DNA of 64,000 nt from Corynebacterium mycetoides (GTDB lineage Bacteria; Actinomycetota; Actinomycetes; Mycobacteriales; Mycobacteriaceae). Location: positions 806,001 through 870,000 of the forward strand of contig NZ_LT629700.1 of NCBI RefSeq assembly GCF_900103625.1, read 5' to 3'. Below the pieces are notes generated by a model. The model saw nothing but the letters and a program-made list of their open reading frames with translations, made no database searches and was not told the origin of the DNA. The position numbers and the translations under genes are program-made. Positions 1-59,147 of this stretch are shown in pieces (position 1 is the first letter of the stretch; each line of letters starts with the position of its first letter).

Positions 1-1771
1 CGACCAGCTCGCGCACCGTCGCCACGATCTGCTCCGCCGGCACCTCAAGCGTCTCGCCGCCCCGGATGCGCAGCTCCACGATGCCATCGCCAAACGAGCG
101 CCCGAGCACCACCACAAACGGCATGCCCAGGAGTTCGGCGTCCTTGAACTTGACCCCCGGCGACATCTTCGGGCGGTCGTCGAAAAGTACCTCGAGGCCC
201 GCGTCGTCCAGCTGGGCGACGAGCTTCTCGCCGGCCTCCAGTGCCGCGGCGTCCTTGTTCGCCACCACGACATGCACCTGGTACGGGGCGATGGCGACGG
301 GCCACACTAGGCCCTTGTCGTCGTGGCGCTGCTCGGCGACAACCGCCATCATCCGCGAGATGCCGATGCCGTAGGAACCCATCGTGGGCACGGCGCGCTT
401 GCCGCTTTCGTCGAGAATCTGCACGTCCATCGCCTCGGTGTACTTGCGGCCGAGCTGGAAGATGTGGCCCAGCTCGATGCCGCGCGCGAGCTTGACGGTG
501 CCGTTGCCGCTTGGCGACGGATCCCCCTCGCGGACCTCGGCCGCCTCCACGAACCCGTCCACGGTGAAATCGCGTCCGGCGACGAGCCCGACGACGTGGC
601 GCTGGCTCTCGTCCGCGCCCGTGATCCAGGCGGAGCCGTCCACGACGCGCGGGTCGGCGTACACCGGCACCCCGTTGGCGATCAGCGCGCGGGGGCCGAC
701 ATACCCCTTGACCAAGAAAGCGGAGTTCTTGAAGTCCTCCTCGCTCGCCAGCTCGAAGGTCGCCGGGGCGAGGGAGGCCTCGAGGCGCTTCTCGTCCAGC
801 TCGCGGTCGCCCGGGATCAATACACCTGCCAGGCGCGGGCCGACGGGCTGGCCGTCGTCGTCGAGCACCCGCGGGTCGTCGACCTTGACCACCATGCACT
901 TCAGGGTGTCGGCGGCGGTGACGGGGCGGCCGTCGACAAGCAGGCCCTCGCTGTTGGCCCAGTTGACCAGCGCCTCGATGGTCTCGGACTGCGGCGTCTC
1001 GTACACGCGCGCCTCCGGCTGGCCGTCAATCGGCTTCGCCGAGGGGGCGACGGTGACCACGGCCTCGACGTTGGCGGCGTAGTCCCCCGCCGAGGAAATG
1101 ACGAAGGTGTCCTCGCCGTTGTCGGAGTACGCGAGGAACTCCTCCGAGGCGGAGCCGCCCATCGCGCCCGAGGTGGCCTGGCAAATCTCGTAGCGGATGC
1201 CCACGCGGTCAAAAATCCGCTGGTAGGCCGCGCGGTGCTTGGCGTAGGACTCTGCGAGCCCCGCGTCGGTCATGTCGAAGGAGTAGGAATCCTTCATCAC
1301 AAACTCGCGGCCGCGCAGGATGCCCGCGCGCGGGCGGGCCTCGTCGCGGTACTTGGTCTGGATCTGGTAGAGCGTGACCGGGAAGTCCTTGTAGGAGGAG
1401 AACATCGACTTCACCGTGGTGGTGAACATCTCCTCGTGCGTCGGTCCGAGCAGCATGTCCGCGCCCTTGCGGTCCTTGAGGCGGAACAGGTCGTCGCCGT
1501 ACTCGGTCCAGCGGTTGGTCTGCTCGTAGGGCTCGCGCGGCAGCAGCGCCGGGAAGAGAAGCTCCTGGGCGCCCATCGCGTCCATCTCCTCGCGCACTAC
1601 GCCCTCGATCTTGCGCAGGGTGCGCAGACCCAGCGGCAGCCAGGAATACACGCCCGGCGCGGCGCGGCGCACGTACCCCGCGCGGACCAGCAGCTTGTGG
1701 CTGGGCACCTCGGCATCGGCGGGGTCTTCGCGCAGCGTGCGCAGGAAAAGCTCGGTCAGGCGTGTGATCAT
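1..1771 (-). CDS. proS: Prolyl-tRNA synthetase (3' end cut by window edge)
   Basis: Charges tRNA-Pro with proline in the cytoplasm. The reading frame stays open for 590 codons to the window edge, close to the length of the corynebacterial enzyme (about 588 residues), so only the last few residues or the stop are missing. The N-terminus ([16 protein letters not shown]), the class II motif-2 stretch [10 protein letters not shown] followed by [10 protein letters not shown], and the insertion-domain start [11 protein letters not shown] identify bacterial-type ProS with an editing insertion. ATGs also exist at 1780 and 1783, but a TATGAT -10 box (1784-1779) sits exactly 7 bases before the ATG at 1771 and the family begins MITRL, so 1771 is preferred and the mRNA is probably leaderless. 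It is divergent from yaaA. Confidence 0.97.
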
Positions 1772-1778
1772 GCGGAAC

Positions 1779-1795
1779 ATCATATCGCCTAAGGT
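1779..1795. promoter_or_regulatory. Divergent -10 elements, proS and yaaA
   Basis: The 31-bp gap between the proS and yaaA start codons holds TATGAT on the minus strand (1784-1779, 7 bases before proS ATG) and TAAGGT on the plus strand (1790-1795, 7 bases before yaaA ATG). Neither start has a Shine-Dalgarno sequence, so both transcripts are probably leaderless. The -10 assignment is inferred from spacing. Confidence 0.6.
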
Positions 1796-1802
1796 GTTCG
1801 GC

Positions 1803-57374: not shown

Positions 57375-57609
57375 GCACATCCTCTTCCCAAATCGGCCGT
57401 GGAAGCCCCGGCAGGGTTCCGCACTGGCATATTTACCTAGTGTTCGGCAGTTTTTTACGAAACTCACCATACAGCCGTCCGCCCGCCATGCACCACTTTG
57501 CGCCCGTTCCGCTTTTGGTTGTGCCCGGTTCATCCCCCGCCCCGCTCCCGATAAAATGGGCCGCCAGCACGAAAAACCCCTGTTCCTCCCACCGCAATTA
57601 AGGTTGGCT
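57375..57609. promoter_or_regulatory. Divergent promoter region gdhA / glycerate kinase
   Basis: No gene. The AT-richer part around 57425-57465 contains a TAAATA-like -10 toward gdhA. TAAAAT (57552-57557) is a -10 toward the glycerate kinase gene, 52 bases before its ATG. Confidence 0.4.
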
Positions 57610-58779
57610 ATGACACGCATCACGTCCGGTTCCCCCGCCCCTTCCCCCACAGTCGTCATCGCGCCCGACGCCTTCAAGGGCACCGCGACCGCGCAGCAGG
57701 CGGCGCAGTGGCTTGGCGACGGCGTGCGCAGCGTGATCCACGACGCCAACGTCATCCTCGCCCCCATGGCGGACGGCGGCGAGGGGACGTCGAGCCTGTT
57801 CGCCGGCGAACGCATCACCCTGCCCACCACGGACGCGGCGGGGCGCCTGACCGAGGCCACCTACACCTTCGACGCGGAGACCGAGACCGCCTACATCGAC
57901 GTCGCCGCGGCAACCGGTCTCCCGGCCGTCAAGGACCACCTCGTCCCCCTGACCGGCGACACCTACGGCACGGGCGTGCTCGTCGCGGACGCGGAGACCC
58001 GCGGCGCGCGCCGCATCGTTCTCGGCCTCGGCGGCTCCGCCACCATCGATGGCGGCACCGGCATCCTCGTCGCGCTCGGCGTCAACCCGCTTAATTCCCG
58101 CGGCCTCACCCTCGCCCCAGGTGGCGGCGCGCTGGTGGACCTCGCCGACTTCGACACCGCGAAGATGAACATTCCGGCGGCGTCGGTGGACTGGATCCTG
58201 CTTGCCGACGCCCTCGTGCCCGCCACCGGGCCCCGCGGCGCCGCCAGCATCTTCGGCCCGCAAAAGGGCGCGTCGGAGGCGGACGTGGACGCCCTCGACC
58301 GCTCGCTGGCCCGCCTGTGCGAGGTCACCGGGGTGGACGGCGCGCAGCCCGGTTACGGCGCGGCCGGCGGGATCGCCATCGGCCTGACGTGGGTGTCTAC
58401 CCTGCTGCACGGCACCTCCGAGCACGTTACGGTTCTGCCCGGCGCGAAGGTCGTGGCCGAGGCCAACGACGTGCCGGGCAAGATCGCGGGCGCCTCGCTC
58501 GTGATCACCGGCGAGGGGCGCTTCGATTCCCAGACCGCGGAAGGCAAGGTCGTCTCCACCATCTGCGACATCGCGGCGCGCGCCGCCAGGGATACCGATT
58601 CTTCCCCGGTCGTCGCCGTCGTCGCCGGCTCCTTCGAGGCCCCCGTCCCCTCCCCTGACGCGGATCACCCCGTCATCGCCGTGACGTTGGAGGACATCCA
58701 CGACGTGCAGGAGCAGCTCACTCGCGCGGGCGCCGCCGCGGCGGCGGACTACCTGCGGATCTCCACCACCCAGGGATAA
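57610..58779 (+). CDS. glxK: Glycerate kinase (GlxK/GarK family)
   Basis: 389 residues. Phosphorylates glycerate to 2- or 3-phosphoglycerate. Signatures are [42 protein letters not shown] and [19 protein letters not shown] at 57610; no strong ribosome site. The last 31 bases overlap the converging small gene. Confidence 0.93.
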
Positions 58780-59147
58780 ATGGAGGGCTGCTCGAAACGC
58801 TCCTCCTGCTCCAGGGCCGCGGGGTCGCGGGGCAGCTGCGCCTTCGGGGTGAGAATGCGCGACAGGCCCATCGCCAGCTGGTTGTAGGAGGACGCGCCCT
58901 CCGCCGAGATCACATAGCGGTGCGGGGTCGCCCCGGCGGCATCCGGGTCCTCGCCGCGGTCGTTTTCGTACACGGTTTTCAACTGGGCGTGGGTGGAGGC
59001 GTCGACAAGCGGGCTCACCTCGTGCTCCACCGAGCCGGAGGAGAGCATGCCGCGGCTAACGAGAATGTCGAGCGCGCGGGCGAACGCCTCGGCCACCTCC
59101 CCGGCGGCGGCGTCGGGGACGAGGACATCGAACTGGATAACGGGCAT
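58749..59147 (-). CDS. Conserved hypothetical protein (actinobacterial)
   Basis: 132 residues, no named domain recognised. It starts MPVIQFDVLVPDAAAGEVAE, is mostly soluble alpha/beta in character, and ends with [17 protein letters not shown] at 59147 is 6 bases after TAACCT. It carries a copy of the dispersed word (59000-59011) and overlaps glycerate kinase by 31 bp. Confidence 0.7.
   Translation of the reverse strand: MPVIQFDVLVPDAAAGEVAEAFARALDILVSRGMLSSGSVEHEVSPLVDASTHAQLKTVYENDRGEDPDAAGATPHRYVISAEGASSYNQLAMGLSRILTPKAQLPRDPAALEQEERFEQPSIYPWVVEIRR

Follow-up and report, generated by a model that had tools for sequence, protein, structure and literature searches.

This work concerns a short DNA word dispersed through a 64,000-nucleotide stretch of Corynebacterium mycetoides (contig NZ_LT629700.1, positions 806,001 to 870,000), hereafter called the window, and through the 2,266,370-bp (2.27 Mb), single-contig genome to which the window belongs. 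A first-pass annotation of the window had listed 14 exact copies of a 12-bp word, CGTCGAYAAGCR, all of which were found again, ten on the forward and four on the reverse strand, as were the two near copies with G in place of A at 55992 and 58199. Its estimate that chance would yield well under one copy also held, with 100 dinucleotide shuffles giving a mean of 0.08 and a maximum of one. Sites with at most one mismatch to the 12-mer numbered 37 in the window against 2.2 expected, and 319 exact copies (167 forward and 152 reverse) were counted genome-wide, compared with four for the reversed control.

Although these copies are real, the 12-mer proved to be too narrow a consensus and belongs to a bipartite word of 11 bp, CGTCGNNAAGC. 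Single-base variants of the 12-mer were scored against a fourth-order Markov expectation in a 460-kb sample, which consisted of the window and 20 stretches spread across the genome. Variants at positions 6, 7 and 12, and at position 9 to C (G less so), were in excess, and those at positions 1-5, 8, 10 and 11 were at or near expectation. Because the excess was confined to positions 6, 7, 9 and 12, the element can be written as CGTCG-NN-AAGC, the gap of which prefers A and Y and position 9 of which tolerates some C. In the sample, CGTCGNNAAGC occurred 254 times against 14.3 expected, which is an approximately 18-fold enrichment, and the whole genome holds 1,178 copies (594/584 by strand), compared with 62 (33/29) for the reversed control. 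This corresponds to a density of about 0.5 per kb, or about one copy per 1.9 kb.

The window contains 36 copies of the 11-bp core. The form CGTCGACAAGC lies on the forward strand at 931..941 (inside the 12-mer at 931-942), 4665..4675, 15860..15870, 24093..24103, 47343..47353, 54948..54958 and 59000..59010, and on the reverse strand at 33378..33388 and 46718..46728 (12-mers at 33377-33388 and 46717-46728). The other form found within the 12-mer, CGTCGATAAGC, lies at 5910..5920, 19017..19027 and 35200..35210 on the forward strand and at 1901..1911 and 37232..37242 on the reverse strand (12-mers at 1900-1911 and 37231-37242). Outside the 12-mer, CGTCGCCAAGC was found at 13253..13263, 15311..15321 and 33448..33458 (forward) and at 509..519, 6741..6751, 46668..46678 and 57711..57721 (reverse), and CGTCGGCAAGC at 20821..20831 and 47583..47593 (forward) and at 2339..2349, 14696..14706, 55993..56003 and 58200..58210 (reverse), the last two being the near copies mentioned above. 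The remaining copies are CGTCGTCAAGC at 45855..45865 (forward), 4318..4328 and 11247..11257 (both reverse), CGTCGGGAAGC at 15372..15382 (reverse) and, all on the forward strand, CGTCGTTAAGC at 10466..10476, CGTCGAGAAGC at 30092..30102 and 55857..55867, CGTCGGTAAGC at 37129..37139 and CGTCGCGAAGC at 42908..42918. The copies at 24093..24103 and 58200..58210 fall in no called gene. The copies at 24093 and 37231 had both been placed outside genes, which according to our crude calls is correct for the former, but the latter lies inside a tentative open reading frame (36695-37252).

Coding context and chromosomal placement

The gene calls were made for this analysis and covered 80% of the 460-kb sample. 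The wider core CGTCGNNAMGC had 341 copies there, of which 282 were within called genes (antisense to the gene in 196 cases, sense in the other 86), 58 were outside and one was partial. A single coding frame was common to 178 of the 341. The main frame is antisense, xxG CTT NNC GAC G, which agrees with the earlier reading of the copies as Leu-(Val/Ile)-Asp with a CTT leucine codon, except that the tripeptide has to be widened to Leu-x-Asp. At Leu-x-Asp followed by a codon starting with G, CTT served as the leucine codon in 163 of 410 cases (39.8%), compared with 648 of 11,054 (5.9%) overall. Shuffling of the synonymous codons in 331 genes (363 kb of called coding sequence) predicted 14.8 in-gene copies of CGTCGNNAAGC, while 206 were observed, and the 12-mer occurred 80 times in the sample, compared with 3.0 expected under a fifth-order Markov model. 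The suggestion that the DNA itself is selected was therefore borne out against both a codon-aware and a fifth-order Markov expectation; the word comes to lie where the encoded protein can accommodate it. The share of about half of the copies in one coding frame would suit an origin of the word as a by-product, whether of codon usage, of protein motifs or of mutation bias. However, the observed 206 copies against about 15 from the synonymous shuffle and the 58 copies outside called genes speak against such an origin, which as a full explanation is already refuted and to which we assign next to no chance.

A weak GC skew would place the origin of replication at about 1.85 Mb and the terminus at about 0.6 Mb. 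No replication polarity was seen on this map in the 460-kb sample, where a hand count gave 116 leading and 138 lagging copies. A site for FtsK of the KOPS (FtsK-orienting polar sequence) type was rejected on this ground. In a recombination signal of the Chi type, an AdnAB/AddAB-type helicase-nuclease would read the word during break resection and thereby spare self DNA. A dense, genome-wide word that is not in excess on plasmids would fit this role, and such sites likewise vary by species. However, known Chi sites are polar, AdnAB is not known to use Chi, and RecC (PF04257) was found in 0 of 80 genomes, which therefore have no RecBCD. We regard a Chi-like role as quite unlikely. Thus, among the roles proposed in the first-pass annotation, the KOPS-like and RecBCD-Chi-like ones fail because of the missing polarity and the missing RecC.

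The spacing of the copies was as for random placement (coefficient of variation 1.03), and the density of the motif did not correlate significantly with GC content over 45 bins of 10 kb (rho 0.23, p 0.13).

Distribution and dialects of the word

The genus was surveyed using 201 Corynebacterium genomes, i.e., that of the window and 200 drawn evenly. The CGTCGNNAAGC counts were bimodal, with at least 280 copies in 139 genomes, at most 134 in 62 and none between. The motif-rich genomes had a median of 1,094 and a maximum of 1,964 copies and include C. striatum ATCC 6940 (1,135), C. minutissimum (1,131), C. aurimucosum ATCC 700975 strain DE0410 (1,179), C. tuberculostearicum SK141 (921), C. pilosum (1,891), C. 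lubricantis (1,286) and C. silvaticum (1,122), while C. meridianum (109), C. glyciniphilum (59), C. macginleyi (42), C. suicordis (35), C. falsenii (24) and C. dentalis (20) are among the poor ones. At the low end of the rich group stand the intermediate genomes G013 (280), G076 (301) and G122 (286). In 56 kb of G076 (L147, L256, L257), the words CGTCGNNAAGA, CGTCGNNACTG and CGTCGNNAATG occurred 11-12 times each compared with seven copies of the core, and they are perhaps a relaxed or further dialect.

Outside the genus the word was largely missing. Two Dietzia, one Gordonia, one Rhodococcus and one Mycobacterium genome had counts below their own controls, and in a class-level draw of 117 other genomes all counts were less than twice the reversed control. 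An order-level search with the 12-mer in 249 genomes, three of them Corynebacterium, found it near background outside Corynebacterium except for six genomes of a single genus (G351, G397, G409, G431, G439 and G446; family f15, genus g20), which had 33-82 copies and thus far more than the control, and for G383, in which the excess was weak (26 versus 8). Despite the excess of the 12-mer in genus g20, the core was at background in 80 kb of G439.

The plasmids examined, which come mostly from species counted as motif-rich, showed no excess. Nine plasmids, each covered over at most 50 kb (299.6 kb together), which were taken from 22 records and belong to C. striatum (three), C. aurimucosum (two), C. 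tuberculostearicum (three) and C. kefirresidentii (one), contained 10 CGTCGNNAAGC copies, or 0.033 per kb, compared with 5.5 by chance, while the genomes of the first three species contain 0.38-0.41 per kb. Because 10 copies are near the chance figure, the word is neither in excess on plasmids nor avoided there. A 7.3-kb part of pTP10 accounts for seven of the 10, of which five are located in chromosome-type genes (mshC among them) or next to such genes and two in adjoining tetracycline-efflux genes; the remaining three were found in genes for a relaxase, an aminoglycoside acetyltransferase and a sensor kinase. The GC content of the plasmids was lower than that of the 18-kb loci of their hosts.

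Some genomes poor in CGTCGNNAAGC, such as G006 and G053, carry a dialect that differs in one base, CATCGNNAAGC, instead. Among the 62 CGTCG-poor genomes, 10 had 625-1,184 copies of it, three had 159-213 and 49 had at most 87. One genome of the survey, G142, holds both forms (1,337 CATCG and 352 CGTCG). Both dialects keep TCGNNAAGC. In a tree of the helicase adjoining the tad operon (44 rows, 40 of which were labelled by motif state), the states CGTCG, CATCG and none require at least six changes over the labelled rows, and C. macginleyi together with G006 (CATCG) is sister to C. tuberculostearicum together with strain ACRPO (CGTCG).

The relation between the dialects was followed in an alignment of a 116-kb region of G006 with an 80-kb region of G004, a CGTCG genome with 921 copies, in which 53 kb aligned at 82% identity. 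The 37 CGTCG sites of G004 read CATCG in G006 in 16 cases, CGTCG in two and neither in eight, with 10 unaligned and one gapped. In the opposite direction, 55 CATCG sites of G006 read CGTCG in 18 cases, CATCG in two and neither in 11, with 24 unaligned, so that 18 of the 20 sites that still have a motif in G004 read CGTCG. The share of A at position 2 inside the motif was 7.5% in G004 versus 90% in G006, while in C(A/G)TCG outside the motif it was 62% versus 65%. Mutation bias therefore fails to explain the switch, because the share is alike outside the motif and opposite inside it, and this tells against the by-product account as well. It is true that the synonymy of the aspartate codons GAC and GAT eases the step between CGTCG and CATCG: among the 162 CGTCG words that aligned outside the motif, 27 became CATCG and 42 stayed the same, a rate which is not low because the change is often synonymous. 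The contrast between 18:2 in the motif and 27:42 outside it was nevertheless significant (p = 7e-5). Thus, the same sites were converted in place, as would be expected upon a changed preference of the reader.

A further form, CATCANNAAGC (CATCA), had 240 copies in C. macginleyi and 93, 103 and 111 in G006, G104 and G152, respectively. Four CATCG sites of G006 read CATCA in C. macginleyi (L172, L248, L249), and the form is either a third dialect or decay.

The steps from CGTCG to CATCG and CATCA are CpG transitions, which would suit the target of a DNA methylase or of another modification system that marks self DNA, and the two fixed halves resemble type I targets. However, restriction targets are usually avoided, while the present word shows an approximately 18-fold excess (254 versus 14.3), and its 2-base gap is shorter than the usual type I gaps. 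Moreover, CpG decay leaves unexplained that 18 of the 20 motif-keeping sites differ at position 2 while positions 4-5 are still CG. Such a target is, in our estimation, very unlikely.

The word could also be the binding site of an abundant chromosomal protein such as a nucleoid-associated, condensin-loading or segregation factor. Random spacing and occurrence on both strands, inside and outside called genes, agree with this, and a co-evolving DNA-binding protein would likewise yield dialects. However, proteins of this kind usually occur throughout a genus, yet 49 of the 201 genomes have neither dialect, and polarity of the KOPS type is absent. On this evidence a chromosomal protein is an unlikely reader of the word.

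Competence genes and a candidate DNA uptake sequence

The genome of the window carries comEA-comEC and an operon of CpaE-like, TadA, TadB, TadC, Flp, TadE and TadG-like genes that faces a DEAH helicase. Except for the ComEC and T2SSF matches, the gene names come from reading the sequences with known families in view, not from a family scan. ComEC was found in all 76 genomes tested (71 Corynebacterium and five of another genus), TadA, the ATPase of the Tad/Flp pilus, in 77 of 80, with the exceptions all in fragmented assemblies of 190-380 contigs, and T2SSF in 76 of 80. The comEA gene was near comEC in all 16 com loci examined. The presence or absence of ComEC, T2SSF or TadA was considered as the cause of the motif and rejected, all three being near universal in the tested genomes. 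In the actinobacterium Micrococcus luteus, the tad genes are required for transformation, and the authors of that study considered such a role likely in other actinobacteria (PMC4322843).

Two T2SSF matches of equal frame length (353-384 aa) were seen in the tad loci of eight motif-free genomes (G015, G054, G065, G071, G078, G125, G147 and G157), which suggests fused TadB-TadC. In motif-bearing genomes such as G000, G006 and G016, the two T2SSF frames differ in length.

We consider it probable that the word is a mark of self DNA that works like a DNA uptake sequence (DUS) or uptake signal sequence (USS) and is read by the competence machinery; an uptake-like role had been among those first proposed and is the best supported of them. 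Several features of DUS and USS were found here: overrepresentation on both strands, selection at the DNA level, scarcity on plasmids, dialects with a fixed core and the presence of the machinery, although the latter is not motif-specific. Because four properties are combined in it, i.e., enrichment at the DNA level without polarity, no excess on plasmids, an all-or-none distribution among species and one-base dialects switched in place, the word is matched best among dispersed words by the DUS dialects of Neisseria. We infer an uptake function, a receptor and natural competence of these species. The reader would be a DNA-binding component of competence, for which a plausible candidate is a minor pilin of the Tad/Flp pilus, with ComEA and ComEC supplied by that pilus. 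It would bind CGTCGNNAAGC on free DNA and so favour the uptake of tagged DNA, the fragments of which would replace homologous untagged alleles. Copies would then accumulate where harm to the protein is small, chiefly as Leu-x-Asp codons, and a shift in the preference of the receptor would convert the same sites base by base to a new dialect, from CGTCG to CATCG or back.

Several observations weigh against an uptake sequence. There was no excess of single-mismatch variants at the strict positions in the 460-kb sample. Close inverted pairs, which are common as terminators in Haemophilus (PMC5217627), were not in excess, with five gaps below 50 bp compared with 7.2 expected. ComEC and TadA also occur in genomes without either dialect, and the motif is missing from G014, G041, G061 and G119 despite their com and tad genes; since the machinery is equally present in motif-free species, its presence does not predict the motif. 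No receptor was found, as the TadE and TadG-like minor pilins showed no dialect-sorting residue in alignments inspected by eye, and both were present in 17 of 20 tad loci, being missed in the motif-free G147 and G065 and in the intermediate G076. Finally, no report of natural transformation of Corynebacterium was found in the open-licence literature, which is absence of evidence only.

Likewise, none of the open-licence PMC papers listed in the searches appeared to report the word or a Corynebacterium uptake sequence, with subscription journals outside the search. Of 119 papers with an instance of the 11-mer, the 30 listed look like unrelated primers or constructs. Three Corynebacterium genomes are named in the available part of one paper, only for CRISPR repeats (PMC5217627). 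Uptake sequences have been described from two proteobacterial families (PMC7811141), and we lean slightly towards regarding the present word as the first DUS outside Neisseriaceae and Pasteurellaceae, one that is actinobacterial, read by Tad/Flp and switched repeatedly in place across the genus between at least two dialects. If so, it would be a third, independent case of uptake sequences, in Gram-positive mycolate bacteria, and many Corynebacterium species, a genus which includes human skin commensals and pathogens, would be or would recently have been naturally competent and would swap core genes mainly within their dialect group; the word would also predict which DNA these bacteria accept. 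The 201 genomes (139 CGTCG, 10 CATCG, three intermediate and 49 neither) offer a comparative system for the search for a receptor and for the evolution of specificity, and the in-place switch allows direct tests of molecular-drive models.

Comparison with known dispersed words and other repeats

Similar to Chi and KOPS, the Corynebacterium word is dispersed and overrepresented, but these are polar with replication and it is not. HIP1 (highly iterated palindrome 1) of cyanobacteria is likewise a dispersed word that is very common in some species and not in others; however, it is an 8-bp palindrome, while CGTCGNNAAGC is non-palindromic and has dialects. The density and dispersal resemble those of the USS of Pasteurellaceae (AAGTGCGGT). 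The words themselves are unrelated, and terminator pairs, which are common there (PMC5217627), are not in excess here.

The DUS of Neisseriaceae is a short word with thousands of copies that is concentrated in core DNA, is absent from recently acquired genes (PMC3630211, PMC2397512) and forms dialects with a fixed core (PMC3630211). The Corynebacterium word is similar in its copy number of about a thousand, in the lack of an excess on plasmids and in dialects that keep TCGNNAAGC. It differs in that it belongs to a different phylum and is bipartite, its halves being separated by two free bases, whereas the DUS is a contiguous 10-12-mer, and in that the candidate reader is a Tad/Flp pilus instead of a type IV pilus that carries the minor pilin receptor ComP. 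As in the Flp/Tad-dependent transformation of M. luteus, genes of the comEA, comEC and tad kinds are present in the Corynebacterium loci (PMC4322843, PMC6370729). Unlike the case described here, the phrase 'uptake sequence' is lacking from the M. luteus paper (PMC4322843).

Scans for gapped words in 30-110 kb of each of 13 motif-free genomes (G010, G014, G015, G033, G039, G041, G054, G061, G065, G106, G119, G127 and G147) revealed no further word that resembles the motif, although unrelated words were enriched. In one of them, G039 (L084, L085), the palindromic CTCGNCGAG occurred 46 times over both strands in 40 kb compared with 3.9 expected. G045 (L074-L077) holds a recurring palindrome of the pattern GTAGTCNGACTAC, which is unrelated to the motif and parts of which had 12-13 copies in 80 kb. 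In the genome of the window, but not in the window itself, a perfect 19-bp palindromic hairpin, AAGTCCGCANTGCGGACTT, was present in five exact copies in the fetched loci (L020:10166-10184 and 10715-10733, L023:12053-12071 and 12263-12281, and L006:1270-1288); these copies may represent a family of small repeats or terminators.

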